Made by a program: the position numbers and the translations under genes
Shown: positions 1 to 13,018 of the stretch, piece after piece
Position numbering within the stretch: the stretch's first letter is position 1
How the letters are laid out: every line of letters starts with the position of its first letter
IMG/VR virus record: IMGVR_UViG_3300025137_000364
Span: 1 to 21,144 of that record
DNA length: 21,144 bases
From: a virus
Strand: one strand, 5' to 3'
Notes under the pieces: model-generated
The model's database searches: none
What the model saw: the letters and a program-made list of their open reading frames with translations, nothing else
What the model was told of the DNA's origin: nothing

Positions 1-192
1 TCTTGAAGAATCATAAACTTGGTGGTCATTTGCTGTACTTCTTACTTTATGCCATGTCCAATCTGGTTTAAAGTTACCAGAATTAGCATTATTAGTAATT
101 ACATTACCGCCACTTCCTATTGCTGTTCCATTTCCTGTATATAACTGTGTATGAAAATGTGCTGAAGGATCGTCTATATTTGTATAAGCCAT
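1..192 (-). CDS. Tail fibre/adhesin protein, N-terminal 64 residues (runs off left edge)
   Basis: The ATG is at 192-190 and overlaps the TAA of the upstream gene as TAATG; a GGAG lies 8 nt upstream inside that gene. The frame stays open to base 1, so the C-terminus lies outside the window. The visible product starts MAYTNIDDPSAHFHTQLYTG and continues through a Gly/Asn-rich stretch to PDWTWHKVRS and a VYDSSR motif. From general knowledge of marine phage adhesins, the DPSAxFxTxLYTGNG start followed by a PDxxWxK segment marks a beta-rich, concanavalin-like receptor-binding module, often found next to LamG/SPRY proteins like the one upstream. The role in host recognition is inferred from family resemblance and position at the end of the fibre cluster. 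Confidence 0.7.
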   Translation of the reverse strand, partial: MAYTNIDDPSAHFHTQLYTGNGTAIGSGGNVITNNANSGNFKPDWTWHKVRSTANDHQVYDSSR

Positions 193-1601
193 TATCCGAA
201 CTCCGCTAAATTTTGTGAGCAAATAGAATAATAAGAATTTGGTGGTGCATACTCGAATGTTCCGTAGCCATTAGCATCACTTGCCGCACTTGAAATTGTA
301 TTAACTGTATAACCACCCCAATTTAAAAATTGAGTATCTCCATTATAAGATGTTGAATATGCTGTAAAAAATTGTTCAGTTTGAAATGCTGATACTAAAT
401 CTGTTCCTGAACCATTTACTGCTGAACCATTCCTATAAAGAATGAATTTTTTTGTAGAACTTTCTAAATCTAAAGCAATTGCAAATGTATCACTTGAACT
501 CCAAGCTCCTCCTGCGTTGCCAAAGTTATCTTGACCTGTTTGTGAACCAGCTACTAGATAATAATAGTTGCCTGTACTATAGCCAAGCAATACAGTAGGG
601 CCTGTTTGTCCATCTGCTCCAGTAGAAGCAAATCCAAAAAGATTATTGTTCCAAGTATCTCCTGTAACATTTGCACCTTTAATTTCCCAATACCACCTGC
701 CTTTAGAAACAGCCATACTACTTCTAGCAATTTTCCAAGCACCACCTCCCCATGCTACTTGAGTAGCACCTTCAGTAATAGTTCCATTAGCTCTAGGTTC
801 AGCCCATAAAGGAGACCAAGTACAAAAATTATTAGTAGGCGTGTCCGTAGCTTGGTCAGCTGCTGATAAATTTTGAAGTGTAAAAGTTTGACCATTTCCA
901 CTTGTATCTGTTCCTAAACTAGAAGAATCTTTAAACTCTAAATAAACTGAGTTTTGTGGAAAACTGCCTGTGTATGCTTTTGGAATCCATATACCAGTAT
1001 CTGTATCAAACTCACCAAAAGTTGTCGGTGCTAATTGACTTCCTGATATAGAAATGACCTCTGAGATGTAACCACAAAATCTATTTGCTTCACCAATAAC
1101 AGTGCCTATTTCCATATAGCTACTATTTGCATTGTGCATAGTACTATCATTTTGACTAAAATTTGTTTCTGTAGAAAAAGAAGTTTCTTCAACACCATTA
1201 ATATAAATTCTTAGTCTATCTCCTGCTGTCCCACTTGTTGTATCTACAGCAGTAACTATGTGTAACCACGCAGCGGTGTCTCTGAAAACTCTGTTAGTTA
1301 TATACACAGCTTGGTCTGAGCCTGAAACATAAGACCTTACCCTTAATGTATTGTTGCTTTCAAAACTTACTAAGAAAAAATTATTTCCATCTGTGCCTGC
1401 ACCCCAAATATATTGTTGGTTACTTATTTCTGTTCTTTTTACCCAAAGGCTTACTGTAAAAGTTTGACTATTACCGCCACCTGCACCCCAAGCACGATAC
1501 ATTCTTTCAGAATTATCTGCTTCGTTTTTATAAGAGTTATCAATTTCATACGATGCTGTAGATATACTTCCTCTATTAGCCGTGCGTTGTAGCGTTTCCA
1601 T
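192..1601 (-). CDS. LamG/SPRY-like tail adhesin (469 aa)
   Basis: Probable receptor-binding protein at the virion tip. Residues about 35-200 look like a LamG/concanavalin A-like sandwich (FTVSLWVKRT, AWLHIVTAVD, LRIYINGVEE, YMEIGTV). Residues about 215-262 are the linker common in marine phage fibres (VYLEFKDSSSLG, then DTPTNNFCTWSPL). Residues about 280-440 look like a SPRY-type domain (SKGRWYWEIKG, LFGFAST, FAIALDLESSTKKFILYRNG). No signal peptide, membrane segment or catalytic motif is visible. The ATG at 1601 has no strong ribosome binding site and begins 3 nt after the previous stop; Met34 is a possible alternative start. The gene contains no GATC, unlike most of the window. Domain names rest on pattern recognition, not a search; the adhesin role is inferred. 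Confidence 0.75.
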   Translation of the reverse strand: METLQRTANRGSISTASYEIDNSYKNEADNSERMYRAWGAGGGNSQTFTVSLWVKRTEISNQQYIWGAGTDGNNFFLVSFESNNTLRVRSYVSGSDQAVYITNRVFRDTAAWLHIVTAVDTTSGTAGDRLRIYINGVEETSFSTETNFSQNDSTMHNANSSYMEIGTVIGEANRFCGYISEVISISGSQLAPTTFGEFDTDTGIWIPKAYTGSFPQNSVYLEFKDSSSLGTDTSGNGQTFTLQNLSAADQATDTPTNNFCTWSPLWAEPRANGTITEGATQVAWGGGAWKIARSSMAVSKGRWYWEIKGANVTGDTWNNNLFGFASTGADGQTGPTVLLGYSTGNYYYLVAGSQTGQDNFGNAGGAWSSSDTFAIALDLESSTKKFILYRNGSAVNGSGTDLVSAFQTEQFFTAYSTSYNGDTQFLNWGGYTVNTISSAASDANGYGTFEYAPPNSYYSICSQNLAEFG

Positions 1602-2502: not shown

Positions 2503-5500
2503 CTATACTCCTACATTGATAGTGCCGCTTCTGCCTATGACGGCCAACACTCCACTGGTTATTGTTATTGCTATGCTGGCAGCTCTGCCAACAACATTTA
2601 AAGTTTGTGAAACGGCAACATTAGCAAAGGCTAGAGTTCCGTTTCCATTAGTTGTTAGGGCTTGGCCATTAGATCCATCTGAAACATTTAATTCTGGGAT
2701 CCCAATTGCATTGGCCGCTACTTTTGCCTGGGTGATTTGATCGTCTGCTATTGATGCAGTTACTACTGCATTGCTAGCCAATTGATCTGCACCTACTGCA
2801 TCATCTGCAATCATTGACTGCTCAACTGCATCTGCTTGAATTGTTGCAGCTCCAGTTACATTGCCAGATCCATCAAAACTTGCTGAAGTCCATAGGACAT
2901 CGCCAGTCATTCCAATTGTTCTGGCCGTTGCCAAAGCTGTTGCTGTTGCGGCATTACCAGATGCAGAAGCTGCTACTACATTTAGATTATCAACAAAGGC
3001 CTTATCTACTCTGGCATCTATTGCTGAATTTGCTCTTGAGGATGTGAAATATAAATAGCTGCTATCTTCAGTTATGTTTGAAGTGTCCAGGGAAATGTTT
3101 GCGGATCCATTAAAAGATACGCCAGCAATTGTTCTGGCTGTTTGTAATGTTGTAGAAGTTGCTGCATTGCCTGTAGCACTTGCGGCCACTACCGATAAAT
3201 TATCTACAAATGCTTTATCAACATAAGAATCAATTTTTGTAGCAACTCTGGTATCTGTAAAATAAAGGTTAGTATTTTCAGCAATGTTTGCTGAGGTTAA
3301 TACCACAGCTCCAGTTTGTGAATTAACAGAAGTAACAGCTGAGGCTGCTTGACTAAATGAAATTACACCAGTGCTAGAGTTGTATGAAAGATCACCGCTT
3401 GCTGAAATTGCAGATCTTGCTCTAGCGTTAGTAAAATATAAATTTGTGTTTTCGCTTAGATCTGCTGTGGTGTGATTAGATAAAGTAGAAACCTGGCCAG
3501 TAACATTGCCTGTTAAATTGCCTTCTACATTAGCAACCAATGTTCCTAATGAAGCCAAAGTTATGTTGCCTGTTGAAGATCCATTTGCTGTTGTTAATCC
3601 CAGGGTAAATTTATCGGCTGATTCATCCCAAATAAATACTGCGTTATCAGAGGATCCTCTGTTAATTAACATTCCAGAATCGTTAACTGGCACGCCAGTT
3701 AAATTAGCATTTAATTCAAAAAGGTTATCTTCTATTTTTAAATTGGTTGTATCTAAGTATGTGAGATCTCCATTAACTGTTAAATCTCCAGCAACTGTTA
3801 AATCATTTGCTATTGATACATCATTTGGCAGGCCAATAGTTACAGCTGCTGTTTCGGATCCGCTGCCAGATACTTCAATTTCATTGTTTGTACCTGCAAT
3901 GATGGCCACATAATTTCCTGTGGTTTTTGTTCCCAGGGCAATAGCATCATCATCAATAGTTAAAGATAAAGTTACATTACCAGAACCATCAAAGTTTTGA
4001 GCTGAAGCTGTAGCATCTCCTGTAATAGAAAAAGCTCTGGCCGTAGCTAATGCTGTAGCTGTAGCAGAATTTCCAGAGGTCGATGCAGCTACAATATTGA
4101 GTGCATCTACAAATGCTTTGTTGACATAAGAATTAACCTTGGTTGCTACCCTGGTATCTGTATAAAATAAATTGGTTGATCCTTCTGCAACAGTGTCTGA
4201 ATTTCCCTGGGCATAAGTTAAAACCCCAGTTGATGAATTATAAGAAAGTTGTGCTGAATTTTCTGATATTGAGGCCCTGGCTCTTGCCTCGGTAAAGTAC
4301 AAAGATCCAGATTCTGAAAGCTGCGATGTATTGAATGGGCTTAAAGAAACAACACCAGTAAATGTTCCAGCTGTATCATCATAACTCCAGGTAAGGCCAG
4401 TGCCATTTTGGATTAAAGCTGCAACCCTATCATCTGTTCTTTCATTCGTAAAAAATAAATTTGTAGATCCTTCTTGCAGATTATCTGTATCTTTAGTTGC
4501 TAACCTAGTATCAAAAGCTGCAAAGCTCCTGGTATCTGTAAAATATAAATTAGATCCTTCACTTAAATTTGAGGTTGAATGATTAGATATATTGCTAACC
4601 TGGCCAGTTACATTGCCAGTTAATGCAGCTGTTACAACTCCAAAAGTTACATTATCTGAGGTGCCAACTGCTTGGCCAATAGAAAAAGTTATGTTGTTGC
4701 CACTTAACGCAGAAGTTACACCAGTACCACCAAGCAAGCCTAGTGTTTCTGAATCAAGATCTATAGATCCAGAATTAGTGCCATCGCTTATATCAAGATC
4801 CTCAGCCGTTATGGCCGCATCAACATAAGTTTTAATAGCTTTGGCTGAGGCCAGCGTGTTATCAGATCCAGAGACTGCATTTAGATCTGTATCTAAAACA
4901 CCAGCTTTTAAATTATCAACTTCTAAGTTTGTTAAAGTATTGTTATCAAGATCTAATGATTTATTTGTTAATGTTTGAGATCCAGTTAATGTTGCAACTG
5001 TAGAATCAATAGCAAAAGATACAGTGTTTTCTGCTCCAACTGTATCTATACCAGTGCCGCCATTTAAAGTAAATGTTTCGCTATCAAGATCTATTGAAAG
5101 CACCCCACCGCTATCGGCTTGGAAATCTAAATCTTGGGCCGTAACTTGGGAATCAATATAAGTTTTTAATGATTGCTGAGTTGCTAAAGCTGTTGCTGAA
5201 TTACTGGCTAAATTATCTTCATCTAATATAGATGTAACTGTAGATCCACTGCTAAACGATAAACTTGTTATGCCATTAACAGTACCGCCATTAATATCAA
5301 CTGTATTATCAGCTGTAATACTCCAGGGCAAAGTAATCCAGGCATTGTTACCGCTGTTGCGGATCTTCATAACTGAGCTGCTAGTGTCTACCCACAATTC
5401 ATAGGCAAACTTAGTCGCTGGCTCTGTTGCTCCAGAGTTATTAGAAACAATTGCAGTAAGTGCATTGTTTAAATCAGCTCTGAAATTTGCTCCAGATTGA

Positions 5501-10456: not shown

Positions 10457-12151
10457 TTATACAACCCCCATTTTGCCTTGATTGTTCATGGCGTTATTTA
10501 TTATTGATGTAATTAAACCTTTTCTTGATGACAAGAGCTGATCGAACCCTGTGGCATCTACTGTTGAAATATTAAAATTAACTGTTGAGGCTCCACCCAT
10601 AGCCTGGCCTTTTGTATGATCTACAACTGTTTCGTTTGGATGCAGTATTGCTGGAAAGCCTCCTTTGCCATCTACGCCACCTGCCCTAGATCCCATTCCT
10701 GTAAATCCACCACCATCAAACTCTGGAATCATTCCAAACATTGCTTTTGCCATTGGGGCAATAATCATTTGTTGTATGGCTATTCTTAATAATTGTTCTA
10801 CTACAAAAGTTGCAAAATCTTCAAATGCAAATTTGCCAGTTTTTAAGCCATCAACAATTGTATCTTCAAATTTTTTCATTGATGCAACTGCTGCATTTTC
10901 AATTGATGTATTTACATCTTTAAGCTGATCCATAAATTTTTCAGTTGGGCTTAATAAATCTGTAAATGTTTTGCCTAAACCATTTTCTCCAAGATCATCT
11001 TGAAGGCCTAAAGCATTATCTCTGAGATCTTCAAGAGTAACTTTCATGCCTCTTAATTTTTCTGCTGCATTCTGTGTTCTTGTTAAAAAATCTGTGCTTG
11101 CTACATTTTTTTCTGCTTTTGCTAATTCTAATTCAGCATCTTTTACCTGGAGCATTATGTCTGCCAAACTACCAAATACATGGCCAAGCCCTGGTGTTTT
11201 TTTGAGTATGTCTGCTATAAAATTACCATAGCTAATTGAGGCTTTAGGTAAAATAATTTCTAAGTTCGCAAGAAAATTAGAAAAAGCAAATTGCATTTCG
11301 CCTATGGCTACAATAGCACTAGCACTTGCATCAATTATGGAATTTGCAATATTCATTCCTAAAACATCCATGCCGCCAGCACTATCTATCATTGATTGTA
11401 TTGTTTTTGCAATTACTGTTTGCATCTGCTCAAAAACTGGCAAAAATGAAGTTGTAATATTATTTACAAAGGATCCAAGCTGCATTTTTATAACACCTAC
11501 AGCATCATTAAATTGCTCGGTTCTTCTAATTACTTTTTCGCTAAGTACAATGCCTAGCTCTTTTGCTCTGGTAATAAAATCTTTTAAGCCTCTATTGCTT
11601 AGATCTTTAATAGCACCAGTTAAAACAACACCTTGCCTACCAAATAAACCAGCCAAAGCTGCTGCCCTGGTTGTTTGATCTGCCATGTTTGATACGCCTT
11701 TTGCTGTCTCAACTAGCAATGTATCAAATGATTTCATGTTGCCGTTAGTGTCTTTTAATTCAACACCAAGATCTTTAAAAATATCTGCTTGCGTTTTTAG
11801 GCCCCTGGAAGCATCACCAACACTTCTAGCAAATTTAATAAGTGCTGTATTTGCACCTTCAACAGTTGTACCAGATTCTCTGGCCGCAAGATGAAACGCT
11901 TGCAATGTATCTGTAGCAATTCCTGTTTGTGTAGAAGTTTTACCCAAAGCATCAACCGCATCAAAAGATTTATTAACAATTAAAGCTAATGCACCAGCTG
12001 CTGCTGTTGCTGCAATACCTACAGCTGCAATTCCTTTGGTTGCACCTGCGGCAGCTCCACCAATAGATTTAAGGCCACCAGTTACAGAGGTAAAAGCAGC
12101 TTTTGTTTTATTAACAGCTGTTAATTCAATCTTTACTTTTTTATTTGCCAT
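10457..12151 (-). CDS. Tail tape measure protein (564 aa)
   Basis: Sets tail length and is ejected with the DNA. The N-terminus (MANKKVKIELTAVNKTKAAF) leads into an Ala/Gly-rich hydrophobic stretch at about residues 33-60. The centre is mostly helical (long amphipathic stretches such as QVKDAELELAKAEKNVAS). A second hydrophobic region lies near 447-473 (QLLRIAIQQMIIAPMAKAMF). Residues 474-515 form the Gly-rich lambda-type C-terminal motif (EFDGGGFTG then FPAILHPNETVV). At about 0.15 nm per residue, 564 residues predict a tail near 85 nm, shorter than lambda's. The ATG at 12151 lies inside the end of the frameshifted G-T frame (11-nt overlap). A lambda-type tape measure gene directly after G-T is the expected order. 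Confidence 0.9.
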   Translation of the reverse strand: MANKKVKIELTAVNKTKAAFTSVTGGLKSIGGAAAGATKGIAAVGIAATAAAGALALIVNKSFDAVDALGKTSTQTGIATDTLQAFHLAARESGTTVEGANTALIKFARSVGDASRGLKTQADIFKDLGVELKDTNGNMKSFDTLLVETAKGVSNMADQTTRAAALAGLFGRQGVVLTGAIKDLSNRGLKDFITRAKELGIVLSEKVIRRTEQFNDAVGVIKMQLGSFVNNITTSFLPVFEQMQTVIAKTIQSMIDSAGGMDVLGMNIANSIIDASASAIVAIGEMQFAFSNFLANLEIILPKASISYGNFIADILKKTPGLGHVFGSLADIMLQVKDAELELAKAEKNVASTDFLTRTQNAAEKLRGMKVTLEDLRDNALGLQDDLGENGLGKTFTDLLSPTEKFMDQLKDVNTSIENAAVASMKKFEDTIVDGLKTGKFAFEDFATFVVEQLLRIAIQQMIIAPMAKAMFGMIPEFDGGGFTGMGSRAGGVDGKGGFPAILHPNETVVDHTKGQAMGGASTVNFNISTVDATGFDQLLSSRKGLITSIINNAMNNQGKMGVV

Positions 12152-12625
12152 GCTTTTTTCTATCTTCTAATATTTCTAAATAAGCAATCCAGCCTTGATA
12201 TTCCTGGACACTAATTTGCTGCAATTCCTCTAAGGTTTTACCTAGCTTTTCTGCAAGGCTGTATTGCAGAAATAAATTAGCATCCTCTGTTAGTCCTTTT
12301 TTGTTTCCTCAATAGGCTCTTGCCCCATAATTTCTTGGGCCACTCTTACTAACACTTCTCGATCTACATTATTTAAAAGTTTGTTTTTATCGCCAATATC
12401 AAATAACTTTTCTCCTTCGCCATTTAGTGCCTTATAAATTAATACATAAGCCATCATTGTAAGATCATCGTTTTGGCTCATTTTATAGAGCTTAGATGTT
12501 TCACTTAGCGTTAATGGCTTGCTGTATATTTTTAACGGCTCTGATTCTTCGCCCCATTCTGGAACAAGCGTTACTCTCACATCTTGGTTATCAAAATGTT
12601 TTACTGCGTTATCTATTACTGACAT
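12141..12625 (-). CDS. Tail assembly chaperone G-T fusion by -1 frameshift (161 aa)
   Basis: Read as 12625-12296, then a step back of one base to 12296-12141. After Lys110 the ribosome slips on A_AAA_AAG and adds 51 residues: GLTEDANLFLQYSLAEKLGK, then an amphipathic helix containing QEYQGWIAYLEILED, ending RKKHGK. The extension has no ATG in its own frame, so frameshifting is its natural route of expression. In lambda, gpG and gpGT are made in a fixed ratio; the T part recruits the tube protein and G coats the tape measure. The EYxGWxAY helix is typical of T-type tails. The frame stops at TAA 12143-12141, 11 nt inside the tape measure gene. Frameshift efficiency is not known from sequence. 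Confidence 0.85.
12248..12272 (-). promoter_or_regulatory. 9-bp hairpin downstream of the slippery site
   Basis: On the minus strand TTTCTGCAA (12272-12264) and TTGCAGAAA (12256-12248) are perfect inverted repeats around a 7-nt loop, inside the T extension. The stem begins 23 nt after the heptamer, farther than the usual 5-9 nt for a stimulatory structure, so a role in frameshifting is possible but not assured. Confidence 0.4.
12290..12625 (-). CDS. Tail assembly chaperone G (111 aa, zero-frame product)
   Basis: Shorter, more abundant product of the G/G-T locus. The sequence starts MSVIDNAVKHFDNQDVRVTL, has the compact mixed fold expected of siphovirus chaperones (EPLKIYSKPLTLSETSKLYK, LTMMAYVLIYKALNG, VLVRVAQEIMG) and ends EETKKD at TAA 12292-12290. 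Location between the tube and tape measure genes fits lambda G. No clear ribosome binding site precedes the ATG at 12625; the tube gene ends only 3 nt before it, so translation may depend on the upstream gene. It is not part of the mature virion in the lambda model. Confidence 0.85.
   Translation of the reverse strand: MSVIDNAVKHFDNQDVRVTLVPEWGEESEPLKIYSKPLTLSETSKLYKMSQNDDLTMMAYVLIYKALNGEGEKLFDIGDKNKLLNNVDREVLVRVAQEIMGQEPIEETKKD
12296..12302 (-). promoter_or_regulatory. Slippery heptamer A_AAA_AAG for -1 frameshifting
   Basis: On the minus strand the G gene reads ACA AAA AAG GAC TAA. The heptamer A AAA AAG is in the correct phase (X XXY YYZ) and only one sense codon before the zero-frame stop. 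This is among the most efficient bacterial slippery sequences. The -1 frame then stays open for 51 codons with a T-like sequence, which is strong internal support. Confidence 0.88.
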
Positions 12626-12628
12626 TTT

Positions 12629-13018
12629 TTATACTGTTGCGGTTGTAATAGCACCAGTTCCCTGGACGGCTATTGATGCTTCAACAAGTCCATCAAAACT
12701 AGCTGTAATATTTTTACCAGTTACAATTACGCTGCCACTATAAAAAGTTGCTCCGCTTCCACTTCCCTCTGGGTACCAGAGCAAAGTAACTGTAGATCCA
12801 ACTGCCAACGCTGTTTGGCCATTAGTATCTGTTTCATCCCACATACAATCTACTGAACCAGAGAATGATGTTAAAGATGCTAGATGAGTTCGAGCAGCAT
12901 CGCCAAGGGAAGTAGTTTCTATTGTGTCCGCACTTTCGTCCAGAGCATAAGATTTAACTTCCGCTACAGTATTGCTGCCAATTTTAATTGCCCCTTCGGA
13001 GCCTTTATGCACTGCCAT
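12629..13018 (-). CDS. Major tail tube protein (129 aa)
   Basis: Forms the stacked hexameric rings of the tail. The sequence opens MAVHKGSEGAIKIGSNTVAE and contains blocks seen in small tube proteins of marine siphoviruses: ETTSLGDAARTHLASLTSFS, GSVDCMWDETDTNGQTAL, VTLLWYPEGSGSGATFYSG and FDGLVEASIAVQGTGAITT. The length (129 aa) is typical of the minimal tube fold without an Ig-like extension. The ATG at 13018 lies 14 nt inside the end of the 53-aa gene, in another frame. The order terminator, tube, chaperone, tape measure matches lambda V-G-T-H. Confidence 0.88.
   Translation of the reverse strand: MAVHKGSEGAIKIGSNTVAEVKSYALDESADTIETTSLGDAARTHLASLTSFSGSVDCMWDETDTNGQTALAVGSTVTLLWYPEGSGSGATFYSGSVIVTGKNITASFDGLVEASIAVQGTGAITTATV

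Follow-up and report, generated by a model that had tools for sequence, protein, structure and literature searches.

How two overlapping reading frames, lying between the tail tube and tape measure genes of a marine phage, could yield two tail assembly proteins, and in what ratio, is the question raised by this locus. G-T frameshifting is among the textbook examples of recoding and sets a ratio of G to G-T that matters for tail assembly. What governs this ratio other than the slippery heptamer has received little description. Slippery sites in tail chaperone genes form a well-known class; the roles of lambda G and T in tail assembly have been reviewed, with a G to G-T ratio of 30:1 (PMC5009743), and frameshift rates of 6-7% have been measured for two tail chaperone genes (PMC3711429). 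The G-T frameshift predicted here, in a 21,144-nucleotide stretch from IMG/VR virus record IMGVR_UViG_3300025137_000364 (the window), is a further case of that known class; its new part is an RNA helix downstream of the slip site, which the first-pass annotation had not noticed and which is added here.

The G-T locus and its probable slip site

The genes run in the order tail tube, G, T and tape measure on the minus strand (Table 1), and the 3' end of G reads GAG GAA ACA AAA AAG GAC TAA. On re-reading the sequence, the particulars of the first-pass annotation were all correct: the end of G, the phase and position of A_AAA_AAG (12302-12296), and an open -1 frame of 51 codons that has no ATG and terminates (TAA, 12143-12141) 11 nt inside the tape measure gene, which starts at 12151. 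Read in the -1 frame from 12296, the extension translates as G-LTEDANLFLQYSLAEKLGKTLEELQQISVQEYQGWIAYLEILEDRKKHGK-stop. Of the 64 in-phase XXXYYYZ heptamers contained in the window's ORFs, this one alone is A_AAA_AAG, and just one other also has a stop no more than four codons away together with a long open -1 frame. On these counts the site exceeds what chance would produce. That other heptamer, A_AAT_TTA, is a weak slip site located at the window edge, in phase and four codons before the stop of ORF 1601-192 (minus strand; window 1-210), with its -1 frame open to the edge; it may be due to chance.

Table 1. Coordinates of genes, recoding signals and predicted RNA elements at the G-T locus.
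Feature	Position	Strand	Basis
Major tail tube protein gene, 129 aa, upstream of G	12629..13018	-	PHROG 1407 major tail protein, 7.6e-16
Gene G, putative tail assembly chaperone, 0 frame, 111 aa	12290..12625	-	ORF; PHROG 344 tail assembly chaperone, 8.4e-5; PHROG 20784, 1.2e-6
GAGG, Shine-Dalgarno-like, 4 nt before heptamer; possible 5' stimulator	12307..12310	-	Conserved GAG codon
Slippery heptamer A_AAA_AAG, in phase with G, one codon before TAA	12296..12302	-	Sequence; heptamer codons essentially invariant in relatives
T extension, -1 frame, 51 codons + TAA	12141..12296	-	PHROG 337, 5.5e-5; PHROG 26456; codon-phase substitution pattern
5' arm of long-range helix, GGAUGCUAAUUU, beginning 10 nt after heptamer	12274..12285	-	RNAalifold, pair counts
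Inner hairpin UUUCUGCAA/UUGCAGAAA within long-range helix	12248..12272	-	Single-sequence fold; kept in nearest relatives, placed differently in others
Second, weaker inner stem	12218..12246	-	Single-sequence fold only
3' arm of long-range helix, AAAUUAGUGUCC	12206..12217	-	RNAalifold, pair counts
Tape measure protein gene, 564 aa	10457..12151	-	PHROG 8462, 1.1e-36; Pfam Tape_meas_lam_C, 2e-12

That the two frames form a G-T tail chaperone pair joined by -1 frameshifting, as had been proposed, is supported by gene order, by family matches and by conservation. The joined G-T protein matched PHROG 16513, 'tail assembly chaperone', with residues 3-156 on positions 6-160 of 160 (1.3e-8), and G by itself matched tail assembly chaperone families weakly (PHROG 344). 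PHROG 337 is common to the T extension and lambda gpT (4.7e-7 for the latter) and was matched by 24 of 29 T extensions tested from relatives, while direct profile-profile comparison of T with lambda T gave a weak match (probability 9%, E 0.0036). A Pfam search of the window's G and T returned no match for either; among the relatives, a weak match of G to Pfam TAC_13 was seen in 6 of 29. Nothing was found when solved structures were searched with the G profile or when annotated phages were searched at the DNA level, and no relative came up when genome contigs were scanned for the Sinorhizobium phage G gene. By terminase, the nearest named relatives are CRP-822-type Roseobacter phages (48-50%), which points to a likely alphaproteobacterial host.

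Conservation of the heptamer and the -1 frame

In each of the 104 distinct close relatives from IMG/VR, G carries A_AAA_AAG or A_AAA_AAC in phase at its end, and an open, protein-like -1 frame encoding the same domain follows. Their G genes end with A_AAA_AAG followed by GAC TAA, by GAC TGA or directly by TAA, or with A_AAA_AAC directly followed by TAA. Four further groups were seeded with cultured phages of Roseobacter (CRP-406, CRP-823) and Pelagibacter (HTVC202P, HTVC112P), and among their readable loci a heptamer of the same class and the frame are both retained in 81/81, 78/78, 76/79 and 80/80 respectively; in the three exceptions, all from the HTVC202P group, the last six codons before the stop contain no heptamer. 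The first-pass annotation had named related phages lacking both the heptamer and the open -1 frame as evidence that would count against it; instead, the two features persist in hundreds of relatives. Substitutions within the extension, counted on a tree of 95 relatives, fell on -1-frame codon positions 1, 2 and 3 in the numbers 135, 55 and 260, a pattern that demonstrates coding selection in the -1 frame. A programmed -1 frameshift at this site is thus predicted with strong support.

Upstream of the heptamer, codon -4 is GAG in 90 of the 95 relatives, with three changes on the tree, against a usage of only 22% GAG among the window's Glu codons. This codon contributes to the GAGG motif, which is separated from the heptamer by 4 nt in the window and by 7 nt in many relatives, a difference in spacing that counts against our preferred reading.

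About three times on the tree, A_AAA_AAC UAA has been replaced by A_AAA_AAG, with UAA following either directly or after GAC; very different slipperiness in E. coli has been reported for the two heptamers (PMC5009743).

Among cultured phages, CRP-406, CRP-823 and CRP-811 all possess the G gene, the heptamer and the -1 frame, and G of CRP-406 is annotated as hypothetical. None of the cultured Pelagibacter and Roseobacter phages examined has T annotated, the frameshift product being absent from the GenBank record of all seven that were viewed. In Pelagibacter phage HTVC112P (3406-3552), an antisense ORF (gp41), probably spurious, has been placed in GenBank over the unannotated T extension. In a distant relative, Marine virus AG-345-A17, a T-like sequence (LGKTVAELCETLTVEEMIGWAAF) follows G at about 3256-3400, but it is encoded in frame +1 (or -2), and an XXXYYYZ heptamer is lacking close to the G stop; another shift may be used there, or the single-cell assembly may contain an indel.

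A long-range helix downstream of the heptamer

Over the ten codons that follow the slip site, third positions hardly vary on the tree of 95 relatives, and the consensus fold explains this conservation by the pairing of a helix arm. The conserved block was also considered as an independent start codon for T, as a site of readthrough of the G stop (TAATAA in some relatives) and as a sigma-70-like promoter, each of which was rejected in its favour.

In the consensus fold the two outer arms of Table 1 form 12 base pairs across a 56-nt loop, with an energy of -14.4 kcal/mol compared with a mean of -1.2 and a best value of -6.4 for column shuffles. Pairing holds in 99.1% of cells in 47 relatives and drops to 25-54% when the partner is slid; 11 cells carry double changes, and none of 500 shuffles had as many. 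At pair 61-130, a tree from which the helix columns were left out shows about three replacements of C-G by G-C and two other changes. The helix begins 10 nt after the heptamer in the window and 7 nt after it in the A_AAA_AAC relatives. A stable, conserved RNA structure therefore lies about 5-10 nt after the heptamer, as is characteristic of structure-stimulated -1 frameshifting.

Folded alone, the window RNA is predicted to form the helix closing two stems, that is, a three-way junction (-26.6 kcal/mol, z = -2.93). Random synonymous recoding at phage codon usage, with amino acids fixed, gave an equally good helix in 0.7% of trials. A codon shuffle within the window sequence alone gave weak significance (P 0.15); this is too weak a null, and it was supplemented by the phage-usage recoding and by tree-based covariation. 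A search of Rfam returned only a spurious miRNA match far below the cut-off. The inner hairpin was our first idea for a stimulator and was rejected, since neither its sequence nor its place is conserved across clades, whereas the outer helix is.

Helices in other phages and the proposed mechanism

Relatives of CRP-406 and CRP-823 have a 12-bp helix (GCGAUCCAUUCA/UGAAUGGGUCGC) that begins 6 nt after the heptamer, spans a 79-nt loop and is unrelated in sequence to that of the window; 94.6% of cells are paired and 10 carry double changes. CRP-811 also carries a helix of this type, and a minority subgroup has mismatches in it. Its 3' arm encodes a NEWVAY stretch, so that protein constraint partly explains its conservation, and recoding gave P values of 0.016-0.16. 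In a further subgroup the heptamer is followed, after 4 nt, by an 18-bp hairpin, which is 99.1% paired and was never produced by random recoding in the one example tested; relatives of HTVC112P have a G+C-rich hairpin of 7 bp. The HTVC202P group keeps the heptamer but showed no helix, and the helix is therefore not universal. Covariation backs the downstream structure in one phage group, and a second group has an equivalent of unrelated sequence. A conserved structure downstream of a G-T site was not described for any phage in the literature searched, Xu et al. 2004 and 2013 being outside its scope.

The locus is best explained, in our view, by canonical programmed -1 frameshifting of the G-T type, with a structured stimulator downstream and possibly some help from GAGG (probability about 0.85). 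Most ribosomes would terminate at the TAA and release G, while a minority would slip back by one base on A_AAA_AAG and read 51 more codons to make G-T, both the event and its rate being predictions from the sequence. If the proteins act in this phage as in lambda, G would bind the tape measure protein and the T part would recruit the tail tube protein. The helix, closing its two hairpins, would be met at the mRNA entrance while the ribosome reads the heptamer, and very probably promotes the slip; GAGG may assist by pairing with 16S rRNA, as in dnaX.

It is improbable, but worth weighing, that the frameshift is real and the helix serves another purpose, such as mRNA stability or the control of tape measure translation. 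Its role is deduced from sequence and the HTVC202P group manages without it, but across unrelated sequences the 5' arm stays 6-10 nt after the heptamer, the usual position of a -1 stimulator, while the position of the 3' arm relative to the tape measure start varies. Transcriptional slippage, in which RNA polymerase would add or drop an A and ordinary translation would then give G-T, seems very unlikely. In many relatives the run does reach 8-9 A, but the window and its clade have only six, a run shorter than transcriptional slippage usually needs, which makes that process unlikely in the window; furthermore, the constant feature over A6 to A9 is the in-phase A_AAA_AAN heptamer, and the near-fixed distance to the helix suits ribosomal slippage. 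That T is made separately from a non-ATG start of its own is scarcely credible, since the AGAGGAU/AAAGGAU that resembles a ribosome-binding site in the T region has its AGGA accounted for by the helix arm, conserved T residues start directly after the heptamer, and the nearest NTG (codon +10) varies among GTG, CTG, TCG and TCA according to the relative.

A structured stimulator of -1 frameshifting has precedents outside tail genes. The IS911 heptamer is A_AAA_AAG, and in both dnaX and IS911 a Shine-Dalgarno-like sequence lies upstream of the slip site. Like the window, E. coli dnaX and IS911 combine A_AAA_AAG with a 3' structure, which in IS911 is reported to be a three-way junction (PMC5009743) similar to the predicted window fold, and the mechanism is therefore not new in itself. 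They differ in their unrelated genes and products, and the closing helix of the window spans 80 nt. The CRP-822-type Roseobacter phages (PMC12629253) share with the window the tail gene order, heptamer class, open -1 frame and an analogous long-range helix, but the helix sequence is unrelated and the frameshift product unannotated; the paper describing them restricts the tail assembly chaperone to some subgroups and leaves frameshifting unmentioned.

We propose, tentatively and at somewhat less than even odds, that multi-branched long-range helices 5-10 nt past the slip site belong generally to G-T frameshifting, both in marine siphophages and in lambda itself, having arisen repeatedly and been overlooked, and that they help to set the ratio of G to G-T required for tail assembly. 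Lambda shares with the window its gene order, -1 direction, G/G-T pair and a T domain in PHROG 337; it differs in heptamer (G_GGA_AAG against A_AAA_AAG), in the distance from slip site to G stop (5 codons against 1) and in the length of T (144 aa against 51 codons). In lambda and nine relatives, HK225, N15 and phi80 among them, a helix of 8-10 bp with a loop of about 55 nt lies 5-7 nt past the heptamer; the 12-bp helix of the window is stronger and covarying. The lambda-group helix has only one pair with a double-sided change (G-C to A-U), and recoding gave P values of 0.027-0.41 in six phages; on both counts we treat it as a lead only. This weaker hint suggests that an undescribed stimulator may also be present at the frameshift site of lambda, a phage in which a laboratory test is easy.
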